Shown one piece after another: positions 1-17,934 of a stretch of 64,000 nt of DNA. The DNA comes from Ceratodon purpureus (taxonomy: Eukaryota; Streptophyta; Bryopsida; Pseudoditrichales; Ditrichaceae). The notes below the pieces were generated by a model. That model was given only the letters and a program-made list of their open reading frames with translations. It ran no database searches and was not told the DNA's origin. The stretch covers positions 18,633,357-18,697,356 of the forward strand of contig CM026424.1 in NCBI GenBank assembly GCA_014871385.1, written 5' to 3'. The position numbers were made by a program, and so were the translations under genes. Positions within the stretch are counted from its first letter, which is position 1; each line of letters begins with the position of its first letter.

Positions 1-2352
1 CAGCAGACCGTCCTCTAATTGCAAAGACGGATTTTGTTGCCGTCGTTTACGGATCTTTGCTCCCACAGTAGTACGTCCAGAACCAAGCTCTTCCAAAACT
101 TTTCCTTTCTCCCTTGTCGCATTGACATTGACCTCTGAAGTACATGTGTTAAACGTGTAAATACAAAGTTTTACCGCTGTGAAATCATTGCACGACTCTA
201 AACACAAAAACAACCTCGCATACATTACCTTCCACTCTGGGACAAGGCGGAATTGGTTCGTCCAATACTTCACGTTCAACGCCTTTACTCCGACTGTCTC
301 CCAGAGTACAGCCAATCTGGGATCCACCTCCCACCCACATTGAGTCCTTCCTTGGAATAATGGTCTCCACGTCGCGAAGCTCTGCGTGACTATGAATATT
401 AGAAAACTCCACCTCCGAGTACCGATATTCGTCGATACTTACCTCATTTTGTCCCGTCTGCGGTACTGGCACTGTGTTTCCAGACTCTTCTTCTATCGTA
501 ATGTCTTTGAACATGTTAATGCTAGTCCCATTCCCTGCCGCCTGTTTTGCTTTGGAGTTCATTCCTCCGAGAGATAGCTTAAACACAGTGCTCGACAGCA
601 CTTCCACCTCTTTCCGCATGTCGTCACTTTCCTCCATCCTTCTAGTAAATGAGAGTTTCGACATTTCACTGTCCCGTTGTAAAGCTTCAACCTTCGCCTT
701 AGTCTGGTTGTGATCGACAACGAGATCGTCGTACTGACGTCTCATTATCTGAATGACTTCCTTCAACGAGGCAAAGTGACGTTCCACATCAGTCTCCGTT
801 CCAGCTGCCAAGGACGGAGGAGGTGTCGACATGCACTCCTCTAGTAAACTGGGAGATAAGTTGACGTCGTCATAATCAAAGTTCACGTCCGTTGGCGGGT
901 CACTTAGGGTTCCCTCGTTAGTTCCGTCGTTCTTATCGGACGCTGTTGATGTTCCCTCAGCCTGAAGAACAACAGTGTATCAGCAAATTAAGTTCTTTAT
1001 GGGACTGAATACCATTCCTGACAAACAGTGCCGCTCCAGTGCGTAACAGTGCCCTCAATCAATCAAGGCACAGTTGTCGAGGGCACGCAGATTACCGGAT
1101 ACCTTATCTTTAATTCTCAAACTATAACTTTACAACAGTACCATTCATTGTTTGTGTCGCCCACATGTGCTATATTTATATTTCACATCCCGCAACCCAA
1201 TACCCCACTTACCTGAGTGACTTTGCTCTTACCGGAGTCGGGCAATGACTCCAAACTTACGCCGACGTCCTCCTCCGCACCTTTTCGTTTCTTCCTTTGG
1301 CGCCGGGCGTTACTCATCCTCTCATGCTCAAGGTGGGCTTCGGGTGTATCCCAATGAGCCACAAACACCGGGTACAGCTTTGCTGGACACTGCGGGTGTC
1401 TTTTTTTGTGCTCATACCAGTGGCTGCGCCAGGCATACCGCGTCCAGCTTAGTGCGTCCCTCAAATACTCCTTGATGTACCCGGGTCTTAGCGGTCGGTC
1501 GAAGGTGAATTTGCTATCAATGTCTCGTGCGATGAGTTCAAAAGCTAACTCCGGATGGCTGCTGAAGTCCCTCGACGTCACGTCTAGAAGTCGCCCAGCA
1601 ATATCGCGTATAGCTCGGTGGAACACTGTTCTCAATCCTATGGCATTACCGTCTTCGTCTGTTTCAACATGCGTCCTTGCACCCACTACAAGGTTCCGCT
1701 GGTTCCTGTGATACTCAGCTCTCTGCCTCCTTTGGAGGTTACGTCGGTCGTTCGGGCTCCCTGCAGAGTTGTTCTGAACACTCGCCACTGGAGGAACGAC
1801 AGATGCGACATGTGCACTAAGGGGACGGCTCATGCCAGAGGTAGCGGAGACGGGAGCAACAAGTCCCACCCCGCCGTTACCTGAAACAGTACCATGCAAA
1901 TTGACGTTGGTCGCGGCCGTAGTAAAGTACCTCGTCTCCCCGACTCCTGAAGGCCCGCCCTCGTCGCGCAACATTTCCATCGAAGTCGACGCATTCGCAA
2001 CAGCGCTACTGCCACCTCCCCATGGAACGTGGGTGGCAGTGGTCATTGTATGGACGGGAGTCCTGGAGGTTGACGCGTTCGGAAGCATTTCCGCGGGTAG
2101 CATTCCAGGAACTGACTGCGCAAACGTGCCGGCTGCGGCTCCGACGTACATGTTCATCATGTGCTGCATGAAGGGATGATACATAAACGACATGTCGTTC
2201 GCAACCGGTCCGGGCGGGTAATTCACGTCAGCCGCCGTCGGAGAAATACTGCTCTGCAGAGACGTGGTTCGCTCTCGCTGGTTATTGCCGTGCTCCATCG
2301 ACGGGTCCATGGACGATGCGTGCGTATACATTCCAGCCGTGTTCTGCAACAT
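1..2352 (-). CDS. Ptta/En/Spm (TNPA-like) transposon protein, partial at window start
   Basis: Three exons read leftward: 2352-1213, 961-229 and 134 to beyond position 1. Phases agree (phase 0, then phase 1), giving 669 visible residues with no stop. The N-terminal 200 residues are low-complexity (Ser, Thr, Met, Pro). Residues about 215-355 are the recognisable part: a basic stretch, a segment beginning GLRTVFHRAIRDIAGRLL, then WTRYAWRSHWYEHKKR and a HWDTPEAHLEHERMSNARRQ segment. This arrangement is typical of the plant Ptta/En/Spm family that accompanies CACTA transposases and may bind subterminal repeats. Exon 2 encodes a probable coiled coil (VERHFASLKEVIQIMRRQYD onward), and exon 3 a basic RKRRQQ segment. 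The gene is divergent from the BRCT gene, with about 645 bases between start codons. The C-terminus lies outside the window. Family assignment is by pattern only; the reading frame looks intact. Confidence 0.72.
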
Positions 2353-2996
2353 GATTCCAGAAAAACTTGAGTTAGTACCAATGTTGATGTTCTTTACAGG
2401 TACCTTATGACTTGAACGCGTTAGTCGACGATGTCCACCTCGCGGTTTGACATGCTGCTAAACTATGAAGGATCGTCGTCCACATCAGGTGTACGCAATC
2501 ATCGAAGGAGATCTGTACTATGACTCCAGTATCAGGTAACAGTACTTTGATTTTACATATGCAATGTGTCCGACAAAACAACTTCATGTCCACAATATGT
2601 CATCATACCTGCTCCGCGTTGCCTCGGGAATCCATTGTCGCCTGAACTCTCTCCAGTGTCTACAGTTGAACTGGAGAGCAACCAGGTGCATGCAAATGGA
2701 GAGTATGCCTGTGGCAAGGGTTATCAGAAACTGGGGATGGAATATCTCGCCGTCCACATACAGGCGGCGCCCCCCTCATTTATCGGTCCACGTAAGTGGT
2801 GGACTGGAACTGCAGTTCCACCATGGATTTCGGTATCGACTCCAACTCCTTGACAGCCACCTATGCGCGTAAATGCCGCAACGTTATCGACGTCGACGGA
2901 CGGTTCTCTGAGATCCAAGCGCCTCTACTATGGACACCAGCGGACCAGTTCCTAATCAGTACAGTTGATGCATAATTCGGATTACTTGTGGCAGAC
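2353..2996. promoter_or_regulatory. Divergent intergenic region between TNPA-like and BRCT genes
   Basis: This 644-base stretch separates the start codons of two oppositely directed genes and must hold both leaders or promoters. A good translation context (CCACCATGG) sits at 2822-2830 and opens a short frame, MDFGIDSNSLTATYA, that could splice through a GTAAAT donor near 2868 to the acceptor at 2994, adding an N-terminal exon to the BRCT gene. I could not decide this. No convincing TATA box was seen. Confidence 0.35.
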
Positions 2997-3869
2997 ATGG
3001 AGGTGGACCGCGTGGGGGGTGCGGATGTCACATCTGGGGAAATGTTCGGCGTCTCTGAGCAATCCAACAGTTCGGTGCAGGACGCGTTGTCCCAAAACTT
3101 CTGTTCGTCTGTCGATGATGTTGACATTGTGTTCGAAAAATGCTTCCAGGACTGCGTACGAAAACGTCCTCGACCATGGGAGGATTTTGACGACGAGGAT
3201 GATTGCTCACAGTCGTCCCCAAAGTCGACGCGTCTTCCAGACATGCCAGTGTCCGATGACGGGAAGGACGTTACGGAGGAGCTGTGGTTCAGCGGAGTAA
3301 CCCTTTACATGGCTCGTCCAGTCCATTCAAAGTAATTTCTGAGCCTGTGATGTCTGCGAGGCTTTTGTCCCCTACCTCGCGCAGAGGCGGCCGCATATGC
3401 TGAATTCCGTGTTAACATTTGGACTTCGTTTGCAGGGACATGTTCTCTCGACGTCTCGCACGGCTCACAATGGACAGTCTTTGTATGGAGGCAGAGTATT
3501 TGGGAGCGTTAGTACGTGACACGTTAGATGAAAAGGTTACACATGTGATTATCTACCGAGAGAAGGGACAGCGCTTGGAAAGACAGTCAGTTCAAATGAG
3601 GTATGTCTGAATACTTGTAGTGTGAATTTTTTTTTGCGTCACATATCCACTTCACTGTTTTCCAAACCATTTATGCTAAACGAAATTAACATCTACTTCT
3701 TGAACATTTCTACTGCAGCCTCGGGGGGAGGGATGTGCAGGACATCGTCCTCCTCAGCGGTCACTGGCATCCCCTTCGAACGTTTATTAAGGTAGTTTAC
3801 CAAGATTGGCTATCGGATTGCCTAACCGCCTCGGCATTGCTCCCAGTAGAGGACTACCTTGCTCTGTGA
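2997..3869 (+). CDS. BRCT-domain protein, resembling the C-terminal BRCT of DNA ligase IV-type proteins
   Basis: Three exons, 2997-3331, 3436-3600 and 3719-3869, join in phase to 216 residues. Donors are GTAATT and GTATGT; acceptors end TTGCAG and CTGCAG. Residues 1-95 are acidic and Ser-rich (WEDFDDEDDCSQSS). From about residue 97 a BRCT fold is readable: ELWFSGVTLYM (first strand), a long helix-rich middle, KVTHVIIY (third strand), then IKVVYQDWLSDCLTASALLP with the invariant BRCT tryptophan, ending in EDYLAL. BRCT domains bind phosphopeptides or repair partners; the last BRCT of plant DNA ligase IV is the nearest match I can think of, from memory. No ligase catalytic region is present. The gene lies between TNPA-like and TNP2 genes, which suggests capture by, or cargo of, the transposon. 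A further 5-prime exon is possible. Confidence 0.6.
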
Positions 3870-5944
3870 ATTGTAATTCAACAACAGCTGAAATAAAAAC
3901 AGCTTCATATTGATTTGAAAATCATTTTGCGTCACTTTTAGTGACTACATGGTATGGAGTCATAGCTATATCTGAATGCATTTCACGATCGCGATTCATT
4001 TCTGCAAGTGATATCTGAGTAGAGAATGTTAGGATTGAGAGCTTTGCACTCAATCGGTAATCATTATCGAAGTCCTATTTGACCATTTCGTTAAAGAAGA
4101 AGAAGTTCCAATAATCGCGGAGTCCCATCATACATTTCTGGTACTCTGTTTTCTCCCACAGTTCGTAAAACTCAACACCTCTCTTCTGCGCCAGGCACAA
4201 ACATCGAAACTCCCTTCCATAGTTATCGTACTGTCGGTCTGCACCGTCAAGGTCCAACTCCGCAAACCAGTTGAGCATTACCATGTAGACGGCGCTCCCC
4301 TCAAGATGTCCCATGGTACTTATGCACTACACCTGGTTAGCACTCCAATGCTCAAATGAGAATATAGTCCACTGCAGCTCGGAGTAACCCACACTTATGG
4401 AAGATTCGACTCTGTTTTCATCACGCCCTACATCGAAGACTTCCTTACGACTCTGCAGTGAGACTAAGGCGTCTAAAAGAGGCCCGTCTCCCTGGTTATC
4501 ATGACTCATGTATAGCCCCATCTTCGCCCGTCGAATGATGTGCCAGTATCAGCTCGGATGGATGCATGTAAACATATACTATACCCTATTTAGGAACACT
4601 GAGGAAAAAGTCTAAGTATAGAAGTAGTTCCATATCCGTACATGATAATCAGCGGGTATCAATAGAGACCCATATGCGTATTGCCAGAATGTCACTGCCA
4701 CATCAGAAAAAGAAGCTTCCAGTTCCCCGCTTATTTTTTTGACCTAGTTCTGTCGTAAGGTAAATCGCTCTCGGAATACAGAGCGCTTGCCATGCCGGTT
4801 AGATCTGAGAAACCTCTTTTTAGAATTTGCTTGGTTTCCCACATTTTTCAACACAGACCCGTTTTTGCATTGCCCGTACCAGTAGGGGAAAAAAAACCAT
4901 CCGCTTCACTACACTTTCTTTTCTGACCTAATACTGTCGTTATGTAAACCGCCATAGCCATACGGATCGATTGCCATCCCCGTTAGATTTGAAAAAACTC
5001 TTCCCAGAATCTGCTGAAACTCGCAGTTCTTTCAATGCAGACCCATATGCGCATTGGCACTAACAGTCCGATTAAGAAGCTTCCAGTTCTAGTGAGTTCA
5101 TTTTCTGACCTAATTCTGTCATGAGGTAAACCGCCCTAGGAATTTAGATTGCTTGCCATCCGTGATCGATTCGCAAAACCCATTTTTAGAATCTGCTAAA
5201 ACTCCTAGTGGTCCTGTCATTATTTAAGGTGGCGTTGGTGACGTTCGAATCGACGATGTGCACAGCCGGACGCATCCATCATCAAGGAGGCAGTGGTGGA
5301 CGTTACAGAGTAACCTCCGAGTGCCGTTGGTCTCCAGTTCCCCGAAACCTGAGCTCTTCCACTTTTTTTGTTTTCTGACATAGCAATCGGTGGGGTATAT
5401 AGCGTATTCCCTCAACAGCACATGTCGGAGCATGGAGTTTGGTTGTTCTAAAGCACCGCCTGGGCACATTGTCGCGGTCGAATTTCAGGTACTCATACTT
5501 AGACCCTTAACTCCATAACCCTCTTCCCAACTTTCCTCCCTTCCTCTGTTTCCTTGTTTACATTCGAAGTTCTGTTATATTTTCAACTTTGCATTGTATT
5601 TTCTACTGTACAATTAATTTCAGCTCGCCCATTAAGTAACATATTGTAATTAGAACCGCAAAGGTGTTCCACAGTGGCTCAGACGTTGTGTACCTCACCG
5701 TGGGATGCAAGCTCTCTGTACCTGACTTCATGTAACTCGTAATTTGTCATCTCCCATACAGTAATTTAGGTGTCTCACTATCATTCACATGACTTACCTT
5801 GGTCACGAAGAATTTGCATTGTCACATTGCATCTATGGTTCGAAATGTCTATGTTTGCGTGAACAGTCCTTCATGACTAACGTAAGGTTACAATCCTGTC
5901 TGACAAATGGGGGAAATGGGGTTGTCCGGGACCAGTGAGCAGAC
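3870..5944. other. Non-coding spacer with weak minus-strand frames
   Basis: Two minus-strand frames at 4521-4327 and 4314-4075 are in the same register, separated by one TAG (end ANQV, then MGHLEGSAVY), and a third frame lies at 5469-5224. They could be exons or remains of one gene, for instance with the tandem repeats of 4667-5215 in an intron, but I found no phase-consistent join and no family similarity. No other gene is seen before the transposase start at 5945. Confidence 0.3.
4667..5215. repeat. Three diverged tandem copies of a ~185-bp unit
   Basis: Copies begin at about 4667, 4856 and 5040. Each opens with GACCC followed by a TGC-rich stretch (ATATGCGTATTGCC, TTTTTGCATTGCC, ATATGCGCATTGGC). 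Each carries TTTCTGACCTA-like or TTTTGACCTAGTTCTGTCG about 70-80 bases in, then GGTAAA(T/C)CGC, TTGCCATCC and AGAATTTGC/AGAATCTGC. Spacing is 189 and 184 bases. Arrays of this kind occur inside or near the ends of CACTA elements and may be protein-binding arrays; that role is inference. Confidence 0.75.
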
Positions 5945-8900
5945 ATGCCGCGACGACGGCCTCCGATTCCAATGCCGGTTCAAAATGAACGTCGTCAGAA
6001 AGCTAGAGACCAGAAGCTCCTGCGGAGGGAAATCGCTATCGCAAACCAGCTCGGTCAGCGGCGATTCTTATGTCCCTGTAGCATATGCAACAGAGGACTC
6101 CGTACTATGTTGTCTCACGCCACAATCACCAAGCATGTCCGATGGTATGGGTACCATCCGTACCAACGGGGTAGCACTGTGGTAATTTCCCGCACTCATT
6201 ATGTTCATAGGGGATTTGCAGTTGATTTCAAAGCCTGCTCTTCAAGTTAGCATAGTTCACTGCTTATATCACATGTTAACGCCATGTATTACGCATGTGA
6301 CGATCGGCTGAAGTGTGCGCCTCCGTTAAATTGAAGACGAGGGTATTGTAACTATGGTATTCTGGGTGTACAGGGTGTCGACCCCGACGCATCAGACATT
6401 GAGTGGGGCGAGTCCATCCGATTGGAGTATGGTAGAGAAGCCGGCAGGAGCCACGAGCCAGAACATGATCCTGCCGCTGCCAACGTCGACGTTGTCGAAG
6501 TTCTACGTGCGGCATACGGCGTCGCGGACAACATCAGGGATGTTGCTGCCGAAGGAGCGAACAGGCGTGAGGGCACGCCACCGGCAGCAGGGCCCGACTA
6601 CGGCGTTCCTCAAGACGAAATGGACGATGCTATCCCGACTGCAACAGGCTCCCACGATAACGCTGAATCGGATGAAGGGTCTGATGCCGATGAGGACTTG
6701 ACGTGGGGGAATCCTGACGACGGTGACATGCAAGCTGCAGCTGAACAAGACAGGATTCAGGAGGTGGCGCGGATACCCCTATACGAGGGTTCACCTCTGA
6801 CAAGCCTGGAGGCCGTGATTCTCATGCTCAACCATCACAGGGCCAACAACGCCACCAATGTCCAGATAGACCAGTCGTTTGCTTTGACGCATCGGGTGCT
6901 TCTCCCTCAACCGAACACTTTACCGGACTCTGAGTACGCTGCCTCACAAATGTTGCGAAAGCTAGGCCTGGAGTTCAACACAATCGAGGTATGCCCGAAC
7001 AATTGCATACTTTTCAGAGGAGTGTTTAGAGACCACCAACTGTGCCCCAGCTGTGGATCACCGAAGAGGAAGCGGCACGGTAAATCCTGGGTATCTCAGA
7101 AAGTCCTCCGCCACTTCCCTTTGCCGCCGAGGCTGCGTCGCATGTTCCGAAGCCCACTGCAGGCTGCAGCGATGACCTGGACAGCGAGGGAAAGGGAGCG
7201 TGATGGTCTTGTTAGGCATGTTTTGGACTCCAAACACATGGCGGATATACGGCAGAGACACCCTGCTTTCTGTTCAGATCCAAGAAGGCTTTTCCTTGCC
7301 CTTGCCACGGATGGAATGAATCCATTTTCAGAGAAGCGGAGCGTCTACTCTACGTGGCCAGTTACTCTACAGAATTACAATATCGCACCTTGGTTGACAA
7401 CGAAAAGGTACTTCATTATGCTCTCGTTGCTAATACCGGGTCCCAAATCACCTACTGGAGATGACTTCGATACTTTGATTGAGCCACTGGTAGAAGAGCT
7501 TGAGATGCTCTGGTATGAGGGTATTATAATGGAGGATGTCGCCAGGTTTAGAAACGAGCCTAGGTTTGTGATGAAAGTCATGTTAATCTTCTGCATACAC
7601 GACTTTCCAGCCTATGGCATGGTGGCCGGTTGCGTAACGAAGGGGTACAAGGGATGTCCTGTCTGCGGTCAGCACACTACATCCCGCAGATCGAGCTTTT
7701 TGAAGAAGAATGTATATGAACACCAGGCTCGCAGATTTCTCCCTCATAATCACGAACTGCGGTCCAATAGTCGGGATTTCCGAGGCCAGGTTGAGTTTCA
7801 GGCACCTCTACCGCGGGTGACAGGATCCGAGGTGGTAGCATTTGCGGAACAGCGACAGCAATGGCTCGACGCCGGGGGTGTAGCTGGAGGAGCACAGGAT
7901 CCGGTGCGAATCAGCGGAGTAAAAAGGCTGTCCATTCTGTACAGATTGCCGTACTGGGAGGTGAGTAAAATCTAGACGCCATTACGTGATTTAGAATTAA
8001 TGTGGAAAACCCTGTTTTTTAACCGTGACGATTTATGGAACTCGGGGAAACATTTAGGACATCGTGAACGCAACGACGTCAATATATGTAGGCTTATATA
8101 TGTTTTGTATGCTGCTTGGGTAATTACTTCCATGGCATCTTTGTCTGCTCACTGTTAATTATGTCAATGGACATATAGGTTGCTCGTTACATACTGTCAG
8201 TTACATTAAAACTTTTGTCAGAACATGTAGTTCACAAGTACGAGTTCTATCTGGAAGTGGAAAACCATAGCGGTTCTGTAGAACGATTTGCAGGAATGTG
8301 AATTACGCCTAATTACATACATACGTTATGTTATGAGGCTTATGAATTATATCGCCAGTGATATGTCTTGATACGTTGCACTCGATTCGATGTGGTAGCC
8401 ACATGCTACTTTATCGCGTGGTTTCTGTAAACTTAATGTTGTAGGAAAGAGCCGGATACATGATCGAGATGGAGAGTCGGATGAACATGAGAAACCACAT
8501 GTTAATCTTCAGTGGAATAGAAGTGAACCTATAATATATTATGGTTCGGCCGTTGCCCTAGTCCGTCATTACGATTAAGTGTTTTGCCAGTCGTTAGAGT
8601 GGAGGACATATAGATTCGGGTTTTGGGGATGTGCATGATGCCTGACATACTAAGTCAACATAGTTGTGGGCATTCTACATAGTGGTGGCTTTATATGTAT
8701 GAGCGTCATGTTGTCAAATCATTGTTTAGTTGAACTGATTTTATAGTTATGTCCGGATAACTGTATTTCACTTTCTGTAAATAGCATGTCCGATGGTAAA
8801 CCCTAAGTATAGGATTTTATCCCAGACTGTAGAGGCCCGGACAGACTGTTGTTCCGTAGTGAATCACATTCGATTACTCTACCGCAATGGTTATGTACTA

Positions 8901-11413
8901 AAAAAAAATTTATACTTGTCAGTGGGGGGCGAAAACGCATCTTTTCACTCTGTTAGTCGCCATGGCATTGGGGAGTTGAGTATCGTTGTCGGGGTTACAT
9001 GTCACTTGGAACTGTCTGGATATCATATTATCATACCGATTAAATTTTATAATGACTTCCTTAAAGTTACTATTCTACGTACTCAGTTCTCCATTTCGAT
9101 CCGTTCTCCTCGTCTAACCTGTAATCACTTGTTCACTTCCGTGACTCGATCAAGGTTGCTAAATATCCTAAGCCTACGAACAGTTCATGAATGGGAACTT
9201 ACAGATTTTCGGACACCATGCTGCCTAGGTAGATGTTGCCCAACAGTGAACTCTGAATGGGACATATGCTCTTTTCGTAAATGACGACAAGACTTCTCGA
9301 AATGGACAATATTTAATTGTGACCCCTTTTTTGCCACAGGGTATGCGCATTCGACACACCATCGACGTTATGCACGTCGAAAAAAATGTTTCAGCAAGCA
9401 TCCTCGGGTTCCTACTAGGCGAGAAGGACACGGTCGCAGTCCGGAAAGACCTGGAGTCCATCGGTATACGTCCGGGATTGCATCTGATCTCTCGTCCAGG
9501 TGCAGCCAACTATGTGAAGCCGCATGCTCCATACTGCTTGACAGTATCTGAATCTACAAAGTTTTTCAGAACGTTCAAGTCCCTGAAGGTCCCTACGGGT
9601 TACAGCTCGAACATCGGGAGACATGTGAGTGACAAGAAGCTACATGGGCTCAAGTCACACGATCACCATGTTATTTTGCAGAATGTTTTACCAGCTTCTA
9701 TACGGGGAATGCTACACCCTGGCGCTAGGGATGCGGTAATAAGGCTGGGTCACTGCTTCCAGCGAATCTGTACGAAGAGAGTGGACCCATCGGCGATGGA
9801 AGAGCTACAGAAGTACGTAGCCGAGACCATGAGCCTCTTGGAAATATGGTTCCCACCCGCCTTCTTCGATATCATGCCGCATTTAGTCCTCCACTTGGTG
9901 GAGGAGCTGGACTGGTTTGGCCCCGTCCATGCACGGTGGTGTTATGGATCAGAGAGGTATCTGTATGTTCTAAAGAGGTATGTGCGGAACAGAGCTAAAC
10001 CAGAGGCCTCTATTGCTACGGGATATTTGTATGCCGAAGCACTTGGCTTTATGAGTGAACATCTCTCTCTGTATCCCGGACACCAGAAGATGTGGGATCC
10101 AGATGACAACGAGGGAGACAATGGAGAGGTATTGGAGGGGGCGCCAACCACCAGAGAACTCTTGGATGCGGAGCTTCGTAGCATCCACAAGTTCATCATA
10201 ATGAACACGCAGGACACAGAAACACTACGGCAGTACGTTTAATCTACCAATGGCTTAATGTATTCCTATTGATTTTGCAAGTTATGACAGCTCGCTTCAT
10301 CTTAAAATCATAAGCTGTGCATTAATGGATTTGCATTGCATCGTGGAAGTGAACTCGGTATGTGATTAGCGATTGACTTGTTTTACGATCCTCTGTTTAC
10401 ATTAGAGAGTACGACATCTTCTCGGCCACTGAGCGTGGCAGAGGTCGAATTCGGAACGTGGAACCTTTCTCGACCTGGTTGGACAGGCGCGTCGACTTAA
10501 TGCTAGCTCGTGGAGAAGAGGTGTCAGTGGAGCTTCGTAGCTTGGCACAACTCCCCCTGAACTCCGTGAAGGAGTACAAGAGGATGAAAGCGTTTGGTAA
10601 TCATTACCGAACTGAAGATGTAGCAGTTGGTAACACGTACGAGAGTTATGATTCAGGAGTAGCTGCTATAGTGTCTACGGACTGTGTGGCCTCAAATGTG
10701 GATCATAGGCCGGTTAGAGCAGATCTCAAGTACGTGGGGGTTCTGCGTAACATCCTTCAGGTTGACTATGTTCACACAAAAATCACCGTTATGGAGTGCA
10801 GCTGGATTAGGCCCAGTGTCGGTGGGAACGCTGTTATGAAGGTCGATGATCATGGATTCTGGCTTGTGAAAAAAGATGCTTTCACAAATCCTCGTGGGGA
10901 GAAGTATATCCTACCGTATCATGCTTCTCAGGTGTGTTAGATGAAGCCCAGTATGTTATGGTTTTTTTCCGTGTATATATTTTTTTCAATCAATGTTGCC
11001 GTTTGCAATAGAAGAGATATAAATGTGGAGTATTCAGAGAGGATCGTAAGTGATTGCAGGTTTTTTTCGCGGCTGACAATGATAATCCACATTGGAGCGT
11101 CGTGCTCCAGAAGGAACCACGGTCAAGGAGGGTGGAGGAGGACAACGATGACGTTGTAATTGGGGCTGCCGGATTGGCAACACCTGTGACTTTAGATGAC
11201 AATAGCTTCGGTACTAATGCTACCAAGGACGGAGACCAGTCGGCTGGGATAAACGTCCTCGTGCAGGAGGTCGAATTAGCGGATGCTGAGAGAGAGACAG
11301 ACGAAACTGAGAATGCCTTGCAGGACGTTGACCATGTCGATGAGGATGATGATGACGACGTGGATACACAACAGGATACATGGGTACGAGTCGATTACGC
11401 GGATGTGGCGTAA
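5945..11413 (+). CDS. CACTA (En/Spm) TNP2-type transposase, apparently intact
   Basis: Five exons, 5945-6181, 6374-7960, 9340-10232, 10406-10931 and 11060-11413, give 3597 nt and 1198 residues with no internal stop. The N-terminus has a Cys-rich motif (CPCSICN, residues 43-49) and HVRWYGYHP, usual for TNP2 proteins. The tnp2 core covers about 350-620. The acidic residues of the CACTA DDE triad are present: D392 in ATDGMNPF, D489 in HDFPAYG and E622 in MHVEKNV. A DUF4218-like region follows at about 710-845 (from KSHDHHVILQNVLPASIRG), and a DUF4216-like region at about 1015-1095 (YVGVLRNILQVDY to ADNDNPHWSVV). The C-terminal tail is acidic (DEDDDDDVD). The enzyme would cut at and rejoin CACTA termini in the nucleus. 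Intron 2 is long (1379 bases). Intact frame, triad and splice sites suggest a young, possibly active copy. Confidence 0.92.
7961..9339 (+). other. Large intron 2 of the transposase gene
   Basis: The 1379-base stretch begins GTGAGT and ends CCACAG, and joins LPYWE to GMRIRHTIDVMHVEKNV, a join expected for this family. A frame at 8793-9284 inside it has no recognisable product and is probably chance. Confidence 0.8.
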
Positions 11414-14329
11414 TTGGAGCGGTTGATTTTAGTACTCTGTTCTAGGTTAGTCACGGTCGGATTTGTAGTTGATGATTTACATTTATGTTATTGGACTACG
11501 ACTACGTAGAGGGATTTCACTTATGTGCATGTTGACGGACTCCCTTCAGTAGGTTATTCTGCTGTTAGACTGTTTGAATTATGGTTTCATATGAACACGT
11601 AGGGTCGAAATCATATATGAGACGAGCATGTATTTGAGATCTTATCCTCCTCATAATACACTGGCTTACACGCCGGTTTGAAATCTGGAAAGCCGTAACA
11701 GTAAATGTTTTAATTCTAGGTGACTGTAATTGTAGAACATAATACTGACTGTGTGCTACATGAGTCTAAGAGGACAGGGACAGGAATTCAAAGCACAGCG
11801 TGATTAACAGTGTCTGAATTGCCAGTTGGGAAAGTGTAATCCAATCAAGAAGCGTACATATGGTGGACAAAGTAGGTAACTATTTTTTTTATCTTTCTGA
11901 TGAGCGAGCTCGCAACATTCGCCAATCCCGCGAACTCTGGATTGAGGTGGCCATTGAGGAGGATCCGGTGGCGGCAACTGCTTGTGCATGTGAAAGAGCG
12001 GAGGTACGTATTCATTATCTCTGCCTCATAGGATGTGCACCTCGCAATCATATTTATGTCATGTAATACTGTCTTTGAAAATTGGGAACTCCGTTGTCAC
12101 GTGAACGAACTTCATATGTCATACTGTTTTGGAGTTGTTCTGCCGATGGCAAAATCCCCCTGCAATAATGATCTACAGAGGGAAGTGGGCAGAGTTGTTT
12201 CATTTGGATTTTAATTTTAATTTTTATATGTTTTTGTTTTTTTTTTTTATCTAGGAAAGGAATGGTAATACTACAATTACAGGTGTATAGTAGAAGCTAC
12301 AGTGAGTGTTGATGAAATCATGTAACACAATAAGGAATGCTGACAAGGTTTAACGTCTGATTGGATTACACCATGTTACACTGTTTAATCTTCGAACTGA
12401 AATGTGAGAAGATGTAATTAGAACTTAATCCATTCAGAATTGCAATGATAGCGGAAGTGTAAAATGCACAGTATAAATCACGGGGCAGCAGTGCTGAATG
12501 CCGTAGAATGTAGGTTGTGCATCCTTGAACTGAGAAACGCAGTACTTAATGCATACTGACTAGGTCCGCCACAATTAGGGTTCTCTGTAGAACATCAATA
12601 CAGGATTCACTATGCACTTCTCTCATAGCGTACTACTTTTTTTTAATGAAATAAAAAACGATATTAAGTGGAACATATATTTGAAAGAGTGGATTGTATG
12701 AAAATATGTTTATGGTATCAGCTGATTTATGTCTGCCATCCTTGTATGATGTTTTAAGTCACGGAGAGCCAATGAGTTCTACTGTTGGGACGATGACTGT
12801 CCATGAAACAACTGGTACACGGCAGTGGCACCTCATTGGTGAAAATGATTATGGCGTGGGAAGAAGCCATTGTCGGTTTCGCAATCGGTGAATGTAATGG
12901 ATGTTGTGCACAGTAAATTCCATGTTAGCGCAGGGTATGTCGAATCTACAGTTGCAGTCGTGTGCAGCTACCATCATCTACTTAAAATCTTTTTTGGTAA
13001 TGGCAATGTTGTGGAGGGACGGTTGTGATGTTGGGTCTTTGTATTTGCATCATTTATTAAGATTTACAGAACTCAGGAGCAGTTTGGAGGCTTTGGGTTG
13101 TCGATGACAAATGTTCTCCATTTTCAAACAGCACCGCCAGGAATTTTCTCAAGGAGGGGAGGGGTGGGGTTCAAGAACATGTTGAAGTAAGTTATTTTAC
13201 TGTAGATTAAGCCCGAATTGAAAATGTGAAGTTTTCACGTTCTGTTTGTTTTGATGTCTTTGCGTGAATAAGTGTATGTATAAGGATTTGGCTAATGAAA
13301 TGAGTGAATTGATTATGGAAAGCGTAATAATTTTTTACGACTGGTCCAGAACGAAAGTTACAGTGGATGTGCATACGAACATAAGATTGAAGTCCGAATC
13401 TGAAATGGAGTACGTATTGACTAGTGTAGAAGGAACGAGTAATACAGAAGCGTATCCAGATAGTCAAGCGGGTTATTCAGTTTATGGTTGTTTGGATCAG
13501 AAATTAAATTAAGGTAGCGAATTTCATTTTTAGACATTCGTATGGTGATCATTAAACCCGAGTATCACTATCTGGGTAGAGCTGAATTAATGTCACATAC
13601 TGACTAACGCAGACTAATTAGAAGACCACAGTATTAACACAGGAGTAGATGTCTGAAACTCATATGATTGACAGCCAACGACGTGCATGGTGAATGAGCT
13701 GGGACTGCTCGGTAATGGCGTTGTGGTCCGTCAAAACCATGTAACTGGGGATTATGGCATTTCATATCACAGGGGATGGAAACGAGAAATCATCATATAT
13801 GTCTCTTCCACCATGGGGCGGAATGAGTGGAAAAGTAAGTGCTTCGTGAAATTGACACTTTGGGGATGTAGACTAGCAGGGGAAGTAGGGGTGTGGTATT
13901 CCCAGTCACCCAGGCGAGGCCAGTCTCACCATCCCCTACATAAGCATTGGAGCCTTAGAATTCGCAGATGTGTTTAGAGTTTCCCATGTTCTTTGAGCGG
14001 TTTCCACAGTGAGTTTAGCATTTTGCACCATAGCGTGGCGCCCCGATTTCTGTGGCGGTTTGTGTATGCAAGCTTTGTCGCCGGGAGGAGGAGCTTGTTT
14101 ATCGCGGATAGGAGGTCACTTCTCTTGTGTTTGTCCGCTGTTCCGAGGACTCTGGTGTACCACAGGTAATGTTCAGTGCCCTCTCAGCGCAACGACGTCT
14201 TGTTCTGTTCTTGTCTTCGCGTGTGACAGTGTCGTCCATTGTTAGAATGCCGTCTTAGAACTTCATGTACGCTGGTACTGAAGTTTCATGATCTGTGCTG
14301 CTGCTTCAACCACGCAGGATTCGGATACA
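11414..14329. other. 2.9-kb spacer between transposase and downstream gene
   Basis: Mostly non-coding, with T-runs (about 12237-12250). A frame at 11860-12003 (FYLSDERARNIRQSRELWIEVAIEEDPVAATACACERAE) ends at a GTACGT donor-like site and might be an isolated exon or fossil; no partner exon was found. The final 600 bases probably hold the promoter and leader of the gene starting at 14330. Confidence 0.35.
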
Positions 14330-16554
14330 ATGGTGACGACGAGGGGGATGAGCTCCACAATTCGCAGAGAGAGAAAGCACCGTCGGAGAGCAGGCGCCGA
14401 CGAAGGCGAGGGCTCGAAGACATGGTTCACGAAGGATCAGGGCCTAAACGGAAGGGGGTTTATACCTGGGACGGATCTCACGAACAAGCATTGCAGCAAG
14501 GCGGAGTACGTTGAATTCTGGGGGAGGAAAAATTACCACAACGGCGGCAGGTACAAGAAGCGGGTTTCTCCGAGAATGGTGCGCAGAATTCGCTATCTCT
14601 ATCAACGAGTATTTCAGCGACCAATTGGAGCTGCGGACGCCATACCTTATCAATTTGGGAGAGGGCTTCTGGCGGAGAGGAAAGGCATTCCCATTGACTG
14701 GGCGGGTTATGCAAGGAAGATGACACATCGCGGAACGGGAGACCTCGCACACATTGGCGGAGGGGACGCTGTGGTAGGCGGCCTGACAAAGAAGGGGGCT
14801 CCGTTTGTTTTTACATCCATGGAAACTTTGAGGACGAAGACGCCAACACATATGTGGCCAAAGAACGAGGTCGGCAGCGAAACCGATGAAGAAGAAGGCT
14901 CGGATAATGATTGGGAGGTAAATGTGATCCACGCGGCGGTGCGTGTTATGGAGCCCCTCCATACACATCGGGGTGTCCTTGCGGAGCGACGAGTTGAAGT
15001 GGAGGAAGTTCAGCCCGTCGCAATCGTGGAGCGCGACCCGGGTAAGTTAATTTGTGTGAGCCAGTCCTGTTCGTGTTGTATGTGTGATCGCCAATTAAGT
15101 CTTCCATATGGTTCCCCTATGTGAGGCACACTCAGCTCTTAGACAGGATGGTACTTCCGCACGTCGTCAGTGAATCCTCACCTGGAATTGTGTTCAGTCG
15201 CGGTGCATGCAGTACAGGAGACAGTGGAGGGAGACGCGGATCCTGAAGCCCAGATGGACGAGGTTGCACCGACGATGACATTCGACAAATGCCTCTGCGG
15301 TGGATACATCCCCCCAAGCGATGAGTGCGTACAGGAAACTGTCAATCCGGAAGGAGGTGAGTACATTTTGAAGTAGGAAGAGTATAGAAATCTCTTGGGC
15401 AACCTCTAGCATGTTCCGTGCGGAACAGGCGGCGTAGGTCCCGGACATTGTCAGAGTAATGTGTAGTCAATTGGAAGCGAATGCTTTTCCCAAATGCATA
15501 TGTATGTCTGTACTGAATAACAAGCGTTTTATATTGCTCAAAGATGCAGAAGCGGAATTCCAAGTGAAACCCGAACCGATGGAGTGTGAGGAGAAACCGA
15601 AGATCCCCATTCCAGAATCGCAGACGGGACATGAGATTCGGTCTCCCAGAGCTCCTTCTGTTGCTCCCCTTCAAACTCCTGGAGGCACACAGTGGGACGT
15701 GGATTGGGGTAGGTTCAATGTCTGATTCAGTATTGATTGTGGATTGCATTAGAAATTACAGCTTGTAGAGGCTGGATTGAACAGCCCTCCATGCGTAGGT
15801 TCCCTCCGAATGTGGTTAAGTCTTGGGAGCATGTCATTGTTGCGTATATGTATAGTACTGATTCATAAATTGGCATTCATGTAGGACGAGTCTGTACGGA
15901 GTCTGTTGGATGTCGTGGGCATTTAAATTTGTGTGGCACGCTGATCCTTGAACATTGGATGTATGCGCAGTTTTTGTCGCAGAGGCTGTTTCAATCAGTA
16001 AAGGTACGGCAACAAGAGAGAATTGCAAACAGCATGTTCAGGGGAAGATAATGCGAGCTAGAGAGGTGAAGAAGACGAAGTCTGCGGAGATTGCCGACCT
16101 GGAGGAGAGGGGGAAAACGTTGAGTGCGCACCTCAAAATGCAGGACGTGCGAGTAGAGTACCTCAGGAACCAGCTGCATCTCGAGAGAGCTGTGTCGTCT
16201 TACATGCTCAACAAATGGGGAGACTGTGCGGCCGTAGCAGAGCAACATGAAAGAGAGGCAGAGGTGAAGAATCGCCTGGAAATTGCGGAGAAGGAGGCGT
16301 ATAATTTGTGGAGTAATGGGCTGAACAGAGCAGAAGAAATATGGGTCATCTACCAGTCGTTGGAGACTCTCCAGCGCGTATTGTCCACCTGGGAAGGGAA
16401 ATTCGAGGAGGTCGTCGAAGCCCTGTTTCGGTACATGAACCGTGAGGACATAAGCGAGGAGGAGGCTCTTCAGTTGTCTTCCTTGAAATGCAGGTGTCCC
16501 GACTCAGCATGCGACTTTCCCTTCGTTGTGGACGCCAGACACCGCCACCTGTAG
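14330..16554 (+). CDS. Transposon-associated protein of unknown function with C-terminal coiled coil
   Basis: Four exons, 14330-15041, 15213-15356, 15544-15708 and 15983-16554, all joined in phase 1, give 530 residues. I do not recognise the family. The start was chosen at ATACAATGG, giving MVTTRGMSSTIRRERKHRRR, a basic N-terminus. Residues about 40-165 form a globular-looking block with WFTKDQGLNGRGFIPGTDL, VSPRMVRRIRYLYQRVFQRP and GRGLLAERKGIPIDWAGYAR. The layout of this block recalls the putative plant transposon protein domains found beside En/Spm genes, but I cannot confirm it. The middle is acidic and Pro/Glu-rich; exon 4 is a long heptad-like helix (AREVKKTKSAEIADLEERG) ending in CRCPDSACDF. 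Exon 2 has two in-phase acceptors (after 15196 or 15212). It sits downstream of the transposase in the same orientation. Confidence 0.62.
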
Positions 16555-16895
16555 TGAAGATGCAGAGTGCAGGATCATGTAGATAGTTCGGTGTCAGACT
16601 CTATTTCTGTGAATTTTTGGTCTTCAATGCTTTGTAATTAGTAGGAAGACGTTGCAGTGGGGATGGAGCTAAGATAATAGTTCCCTCGTTAGAAAACCAA
16701 ATAGTGTCCCCTAATCCGCCGCAGACGGTTCATGTAATTTTTGTATTTCCCAGTAAGGCATGTGAGGAACCTTGGAACACAAATTGCCGTAACTTTGAAC
16801 GGAGTGGCATTGTATTCTCTGAAACATATATAAAATTTCGATAGCAATATTGGAAATTCGGGTATGTATATGATGCTCTGTTTCGATTGGTGTCT

Positions 16896-16970
16896 GGTTG
16901 GGGGGTTACGCTTGGTGTTTGGTTGGGGGGTTACGCTTGGTGTTTGGTTGGGGGGTTACGCTTGGTGTTT
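16896..16970. repeat. 25-bp minisatellite, three perfect copies
   Basis: Three adjacent identical 25-base units at 16896-16920, 16921-16945 and 16946-16970. Each begins GGTTGGGGGGTTACGC and ends TTGGTGTTT. Confidence 0.95.
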
Positions 16971-17106
16971 GCTTGTATGCTTACATTTCCTGTGTGGCTC
17001 GGGAGGGTTGGGTGCTCTAGTGTGGGGTATGTTATGGTATATGTTATGGCCTGAACCTTTTGTTTTGCGCTCCTGTCTGGATGATGTGCGTTGGAGGGAT
17101 GGTTGG

Positions 17107-17160
17107 GAAGGGCGGGGGGGGGGCGGGGGGGGGGGGGGGGGGGGGGTTGGGGGGGGGTTG
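17107..17160 (+). repeat. G-tract, potential G-quadruplex
   Basis: A near-continuous run of G with single C or TT interruptions, including more than 20 consecutive G. Such tracts can form G-quadruplexes and are prone to sequencing length error. Confidence 0.9.
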
Positions 17161-17848
17161 GAAGGGTGGATGGGGTCGGCTTGGTAAGATCTCGCATTTG
17201 GGAAATATTTTGTATTGTAAAAAAAAAAATTGGGGACTTCATAAAGCTGTAAGATGTAAATCGCGTGCATTAACACAACGCTCGCGTGATCGAAACCTGG
17301 TGCCCGGTTGATGTTACGGTGGTATCTCTGTCTTCGTTGTCCAGGACTTCGCTCTTCCGAAAGGAACCAAGGTAAACCGAGGCTGCGACGTTGGCTACAT
17401 CGCAGTCAAAGCATTTTCATACAGAAAAAAAGAAAGGATTTTTTATCCGGAGATGTCGATTGTGGGTAGGGGGTGTCATTACTGGCCGTCGAGATGATGA
17501 AAGCGGGCAGTCGACGCGTCAGACTACCTCATGGGGGCCCACGATAATGAGCCTTCGTGGACCCTTGGCTTTTACCTACGGTGTTACGGAGAGTGAGTAA
17601 CTCTGTTTGGGGGAGAATCGGGGTGAAAAGCAGTAACGCGAAGATCAATACCCGCGGAAAATGTCGAAATATAACTACGACATCCATAAATGTCAGACGA
17701 CCTTCGCGAGGAATGGCGCCAACCATGCCGGTTGGGCGGTTTTGTAGACAGTCTGCAGTCCGCTAGTATTTCCATACTAGGAGTAGATTGTGAATGGAAA
17801 AGGACCTCCACCCAGCCTAGAGAAATCCCGAATTTCTACCTGTGTACG

Positions 17849-17934
17849 TTCAGCACACTGTAGGAAACACAGGACTCAATTTGGCAAATTCCGTGTGATA
17901 CATTCAGCACACTAGGAAACACATGACTCAATTT
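17849..17934. repeat. Pair of ~33-bp direct repeats
   Basis: TTCAGCACACTGTAGGAAAC at 17849 and TTCAGCACACTAGGAAACAC at 17903 start two near-identical copies, both continuing to GACTCAATTT, 54 bases apart. Confidence 0.85.

Follow-up and report, generated by a model that had tools for sequence, protein, structure and literature searches.

The DNA considered here, called the window, is a stretch of 64,000 nucleotides from the moss Ceratodon purpureus (assembly GCA_014871385.1, contig CM026424.1, here C4). Window positions carry the prefix w, w1 being C4:18633357 and the window end C4:18697356; negative values lie to the left of the window. Four genes stand together at its left end: a TNPA-like gene on the minus strand and, on the plus strand, a gene for a protein with a BRCT domain, a TNP2 transposase gene and a gene here called D (Table 1). 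Their order and strands, taken from splice models, agree with a preliminary description of the window, in which the four genes were read as one transposon-type block at positions 1 to 16554. The reading as one transposon is supported by the present analysis; the extent has to be revised. The element measures 19,993 bp, from w-2148 to w17844 (C4:18631208-18651200), as given by ends shared with a copy on C6, by inverted repeats and by a target duplication, and since it starts at w-2148 it begins left of the window.

When w-30000 to w30000 was aligned to the C6 copy, the match ran from w-2148 to w17846, with a single break near w2650 where the C6 copy holds a 14-kb insertion. The two copies end at the identical two points, which lie at inverted repeats. 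The left inverted end is CACAAGCAGAAAATCGGGTTATCTC and the right end, read inward, is CACAGGTAGAAATTCGGGATTTCTC, with 20 of 25 bases matched. The target duplication is of 3 bp, TAC for the window copy, TAA for the C6 copy and TAT for a relative on C8; a duplication of this length, here found in three copies, and terminal inverted repeats (20/25 in the window, 30/30 on C8) are both expected of CACTA / En-Spm elements. A 60-kb stretch was scanned for pairs of CAC...GTG separated by 12-29 kb; the element ends alone combined a 3-bp duplication with 18 or more matching bases out of 25. Extension to the left, suggested earlier as a check, thus placed the ends and their 3-bp duplications outside the block, enclosing all four genes and not TNP2 alone. 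If the flanks are joined and one TAC is removed, they align with the adjoining tandem unit at 91% over 58 bp, across the junction, and the unit resembles a paralogous empty site. A shorter element around TNP2 alone was considered and rejected: in-window pairs with a 3-bp duplication match at 10 of 16 bases (w5776-11812, for example) and disagree with the copies. The guanine plus cytosine (GC) content, 47.2% in the block, 42.9% in the left flank and 41.2% in the right flank, had been offered as a mark of the block; it does not serve as one, since values of 45% or more occur in 12 of the 36 2-kb bins outside it as well.

Table 1. Features of the element and its right border, in window positions.
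Feature	Position	Strand	Exons or partner	Basis
In-window part of element	1..17844	+		shared ends with C6 copy, inverted repeats, TAC duplication; right end also by end-pattern search
TNPA-like gene, 814 aa	2352 to -660 (stop)	-	w2352-1213, w961-229, w134 to w-137, w-361 to w-660	splice model; exon matches in copies
BRCT gene, 216 aa	2997..3869	+	2997-3331, 3436-3600, 3719-3869	splice model, Pfam, PDB profile search
TNP2 transposase gene, 1,197 aa	5945..11413	+	5945-6178, 6374-7960, 9340-10232, 10406-10931, 11060-11413	splice model, Pfam
Gene D, ~533 aa	14330..16554	+	14330-15041, about 15198-15356, 15550-15708, 15983-16554	exons conserved genome-wide
Right terminal inverted repeat, 25 bp	17820..17844	-	partner w-2148 to w-2124	C6 copy has same right end
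Right TAC target duplication copy, 3 bp	17845..17847	.	left copy w-2151 to w-2149	
Adjoining tandem unit resembling empty insertion site	17879..17934	+		joined flanks align across junction

The assembly searched for relatives comprises 362.5 Mb in 151 contigs. With w9000-12000 as query, a 96% copy was found at C6:97.54 Mb, together with more distant copies. The four genes are together in the C6 copy, with stops in exons of TNPA-like, BRCT, TNP2 and D, and its ends agree with those of the window at 24 of 25 bases on the left and 25 of 25 on the right. Since it carries almost the same mismatches between its ends, those of the window element were inherited and are not decay. A diverged element of 20,397 bp at C8:14261392-14281788, delimited by the same end scan, has perfect ends of 25 bp, which can be extended to 30 bp, and the duplication TAT. 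Exon matches, which are the basis of comparison here, show all four genes in it with open frames, in the order and orientation of the window; the two middle exons of gene D were unmatched, and exon B of its TNPA-like gene is open for 255 codons, though one alignment crosses a stop. A 29-base pattern from the C8 ends, allowed up to 3 mismatches, has four occurrences in the genome: two are the C8 ends themselves, in mutually facing orientation, one is the right end of the window copy and one that of the C6 copy. Reversed as a control, the pattern gave no hit. Two further copies with the four genes together, as the preliminary description had called for, are therefore at hand, that on C8 with perfect ends.

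The insertion in the C6 copy (C6:97551264-97565359) has inverted-looking ends, is flanked by the repeated stretch CCAGTGTCTAC, and is probably another DNA transposon. In the C8 element a protein-kinase fragment lies between TNP2 and gene D (C8:14266688-14267173; Pfam Pkinase 3.1e-16), which looks like the capture of a host gene. Between the BRCT and TNP2 genes of the window element, at w4708-5209, there are three tandem copies of a 136-nucleotide stretch, spaced by about 183 bp and 65-71% alike.

The transposase gene has five exons and an intact frame of 1,197 codons and a stop, which agrees with the 1198-codon frame described earlier; the junction of exons 1 and 2 is one of several possible. 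Its product matches Pfam Transposase_21, the family expected of CACTA / En-Spm elements, at 9.7e-61 (205 bits, cut-off 28.6) and DUF4218 at 6.8e-29, and it falls below the cut-off of 30.6 for DUF4216 (4.5e-6, 27.6 bits). In the splice model the acidic residues D391, D488 and E621 form a D-D-E set, which we take to be the catalytic triad of TNP2; these are the residues named before as D392, D489 and E622, so that only the numbering changes. The D-D-E motifs are also present in the TNP2s of c12, C8, C8:7.82 Mb and C7, and are matched only partly in the C6 copies. The enzyme is plainly a TNP2, despite ends that are not CACTA.

The TNPA-like gene has four exons, the last part lying beyond the left window edge, and is transcribed divergently from the BRCT gene. 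Its last exon has 92% protein identity to the C8 copy. Relatives of its main exon at C12:284073 and C8:17434394 (E 2.1e-40 and 3.6e-40) overlap hits to Pfam Transposase_24 that are below the cut-off, so that its apparent tie to this family is an indirect one. The BRCT protein scores 7.6e-5 with Pfam BRCT (23.3 bits, above the cut-off of 21.3). A profile of three relatives matched 10 PDB sequences with E values of 5 or less, the best being 0.075, and the names of all 10 are those of BRCT proteins: Pescadillo, REV1, Microcephalin, DNA ligase 4 and TopBP1. The BRCT domain is common to these repair proteins and to the protein of the element, which differs in being a transposon-encoded protein of 216 amino acids with a single BRCT, weakly matched in PDB.

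Gene D has four exons and two conserved blocks; the model of about 533 amino acids is one of several that score about equally, and the acceptor of exon 2 is uncertain. No Pfam family was matched over its cut-off, RNA_pol_Rpb4 (E 0.018 to 0.095) lying below it, and a profile search of PDB gave two matches at chance level (E 0.41 and 0.67). A single-sequence fold of exon 1 was unusable, with a mean predicted local distance difference test (pLDDT) score of 34. The coiled coil previously ascribed to this gene was not borne out: on a simple heptad measure, 144 of 500 shuffled sequences scored at least as high as the last exon. That exon is present at 84 loci, 61 of them stop-free within the match, at identities down to about 20-30%.

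The hits to the last exon of gene D differ between chromosomes in their decay. Stops were found in 20 of 39 on C6 and in 3 of 42 elsewhere (Fisher P 1.3e-5; three hits on small contigs excluded), as if element copies on C6 decay unpurged. C6 measures 110.5 Mb, and C. purpureus is reported to have a genome of 360 Mb, its U and V sex chromosomes each exceeding 100 Mb (PMC8000587); with these sizes as sole basis, C6 is most likely a sex chromosome of the moss.

Constraint on the proteins was estimated from the ratio of nonsynonymous to synonymous substitution (dN/dS). Compared with a copy at C6:4.86 Mb, TNP2 exons 2-5 gave 0.15, 0.12, 0.08 and 0.21, and the last exon of gene D gave 0.11. The values against the 96% C6 copy spread from 0.09 to 0.80, which, like its stops, fits a copy in decay. 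In the comparison with C8 the synonymous sites are saturated (2.9 for one exon, beyond the formula for the others); dN alone was about 0.22 for BRCT exons 2 and 3, 0.13-0.40 for TNP2 and 0.05 for the last TNPA exon.

Gene neighbourhoods were then counted genome-wide. Candidates scored were the best 132 of 2113 for TNP2, the best 150 of 1318 for the first exon of gene D, the best 99 of 1034 for the TNPA-like gene, the best 150 of 260 for BRCT, the best 150 of 386 for PF03004 and all 106 for the last exon of gene D; all counts are lower bounds except that for the last exon of gene D. The count used the 84 last-exon hits of gene D, the TNPA-like list and the 132 TNP2 hits, which fall into two classes of 66 on either side of about 60% identity, and the first-exon list of gene D was only partly included. 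Of the 153 matches in the BRCT list 122 entered the count, second exons of loci already taken being mostly dropped by hand; since these matches reach E 0.003, some of the loci may be host genes or chance.

A TNPA-like gene on the opposite strand and a TNP2 gene on the same strand lie upstream within 45 kb, in window order, at at least 46 of the 84 gene-D loci, the former mostly near 12-15 kb and the latter 6-10 kb away, and BRCT is also present at at least 10 of these 46. Neither TNPA-like, TNP2 nor BRCT was among the matches listed at 28 of the 84. Among TNP2 hits of the closer class, at least 42 of 66 have both TNPA-like and D. Among the matches listed, the BRCT gene shares its window position, between the TNPA-like gene and TNP2, at 5 loci (at two of them TNP2 follows only after 22 and 35 kb), is inverted in the same interval at 2, and lies between TNP2 and gene D at 6, one of them without a TNP2 hit. 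For 101 of the 122 BRCT hits there is no TNPA-like, TNP2 or D within 20 kb among the matches listed. Three of these 101, at C8:7.82 Mb, C5:14.53 Mb and C10:9.25 Mb, were read, the C8 and C5 loci belonging to a single family, and in each the 3' exons of a TNP2 lie 0.7-3.3 kb upstream on the same strand. In all, four BRCT loci read beyond the window's family have BRCT adjoined by a much diverged TNP2.

Pfam Transposase_24 has at least 80 hits genome-wide. The BRCT hits merge into at least 113 loci, and a TNPA-like or Transposase_24 gene is divergent upstream within 10 kb at at least 31 of them, compared with a mean of 0.35 and a maximum of 3 in 200 random draws, for which rounded lengths were used for C2, C7, C9, C11 and C13. 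No TNPA-type gene lies within 25 kb at 72 of the 113 among the matches listed. Six of the 31 divergent pairs are of the kind with TNP2 between. The pair at C7:9.38 Mb consists of a TNPA gene (Transposase_24, 9.9e-7) and BRCT, and is followed by a TNP2 (34% and 44% identical in exons 2 and 3) and a late gene; element ends were not found within the 17 kb read. Given such diverged TNP2s beside BRCT, including the order at C7:9.38 Mb, the order TNPA(-), BRCT(+), TNP2(+), late gene(+) appears to predate the window's family.

The late gene on C7 resembles the gene downstream of the C10 TNP2 (E 4.5e-10), with no Pfam family in either; these related genes are another accessory gene of TNP2 elements. 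TNP2 hits of equal score and 53% identity to the window occur on several chromosomes (for example C1:14677417, C2:10274216, C3:8377705 and C4:2490762), which suggests a recent burst of another family.

We read the window block, at a probability of roughly 0.75, as a complete DNA transposon of 19,993 bp with four genes, which is of the cut-and-paste class and the TNP2 (CACTA/En-Spm-like) type and could be autonomous. The basis is the ends, the duplication, the open exon models of the four genes, the relatives with the same genes and the constraint on the proteins. Several observations weigh against it. The ends start CACAA and CACAG, and the CACTA...TAGTG signature is absent. Among 30 Markov controls, three gave one end pair with a duplication, matching at 18, 18 and 19 of 25 bases where the element has 20; the blind end scan by itself is therefore modest evidence, and its agreement with the C6 copy is the strong part. 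The Pfam search of the window's TNPA-like protein returned no family, and a direct profile comparison of this protein with a Transposase_24 protein gave only a weak match (E 0.013, probability 3%). Exons 1 and 3 of gene D gave dN/dS of 0.41 and 0.85 against the partly broken copy at C6:4.86 Mb, and against C8 some exons are fast, with dN of 0.73 in the first exon of BRCT, 0.49 in TNPA exon A and 0.66 in TNPA exon B. BRCT is missing among the matches listed at 36 of the 46 loci that have TNPA, TNP2 and D, and the functions of BRCT and gene D are inferred.

The family may once have been autonomous and the window copy a dead relic that no longer moves, a possibility to which we give somewhat less than even odds. 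The preliminary description had suggested that the transposase could be recent or active. Against a relic are the open frames of the window; for it are the nearest copy, 96% identical and with stops in several exons, and the window ends, which match at just 20 of 25 bases. The latter point loses force because the mismatches are nearly the same in the C6 copy and hence inherited, and the C8 relative with its perfect ends also tells against a relic.

It is unlikely, in our estimate, that BRCT and gene D are passengers without a role in transposition, carried by a two-gene CACTA-like element of TNPA and TNP2. The three different positions of BRCT among relatives, its frequent absence, among the matches listed, from TNPA-TNP2-D loci and its fast first exon would fit passengers, and capture does occur, as the kinase fragment on C8 indicates. 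Against this stand the spread of the last exon of gene D, most often stop-free, down to very low identity, the low dN of BRCT exons 2 and 3 in spite of saturated synonymous sites, and the presence of BRCT beside TNP2s that are only 36% and 44% identical in the third exon. It is highly improbable that the block is a segmental duplication, or that several unrelated transposons and host genes came together in it by chance or by nesting: the genome is repeat-rich and the C6 copy does hold an insertion, but one end pair with its duplication encloses the block in two copies, the C8 element has perfect ends of its own, and there is the likely empty site.

Full-length plant CACTA (En/Spm) elements are described as having two open reading frames and CACTA...TAGTG ends (PMC4158355). 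The window element has in common with them a TNP2-type transposase, inverted ends, a 3-bp duplication and a putative second gene of the TNPA/ORF2 type, and differs in having four genes between its ends and in its CACAA and CACAG termini. Because of these termini it is not a canonical CACTA element, and the CACTA type named earlier holds for the transposase, the inverted ends and the duplication; it is a TNP2 transposon with an enlarged gene set. Tgmt*, a 20.5-kb soybean CACTA element, is of the same size class and also has a tnp2 domain and inverted ends; its abstract describes a single large gene that combines tnp2 and TNP1-type domains, and mentions neither BRCT nor gene D (PMC2613891). The CACTA-related (TRC) elements of animals and fungi, such as SmTRC1, share Transposase_21 and non-CACTA ends with the window element; as described, they differ in their hosts, in CCC core ends in animals, in a 2-bp repeat suggested for S. 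mansoni and in one predicted open reading frame (PMC1636069). No paper joining CACTA/EnSpm or transposase accessory genes with BRCT was found in the searchable literature, as judged from the papers listed, Repbase and most subscription journals being outside it. The earlier remark that a four-gene element with BRCT would be unusual is apt beside the two reading frames known for CACTA elements, less so within this genome, where BRCT recurs beside TNP2 or TNPA-type genes.

By analogy with its family, the TNP2 protein would cut at the inverted repeats and join the element to its target, giving the 3-bp duplication, and the TNPA-like protein would bind the element ends and help to build or regulate the complex. 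Less certainly, the BRCT protein may connect the transposase, or the ends once cut, with the host response to double-strand breaks, as an adaptor for a phosphoprotein or repair factor that aids repair of the donor gap or times transposition. The product of gene D probably serves as an accessory that binds DNA or helps to form the complex. More tentatively, and with the odds slightly against it, a deep TNP2 lineage may be a multi-gene machine in which an old, divergent TNPA-BRCT core couples cutting to host break repair, and the late gene, D in this family, is a specialised partner.

If this is true, the elements of this lineage in the moss bring their own repair adaptor. A lineage that has long kept a BRCT gene would be a direct test case for how cut-and-paste elements handle the break they leave behind, and whether they do so with an adaptor of their own. 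There is a warning for annotation as well: numerous BRCT genes of this genome probably belong to transposons and are not host repair genes.

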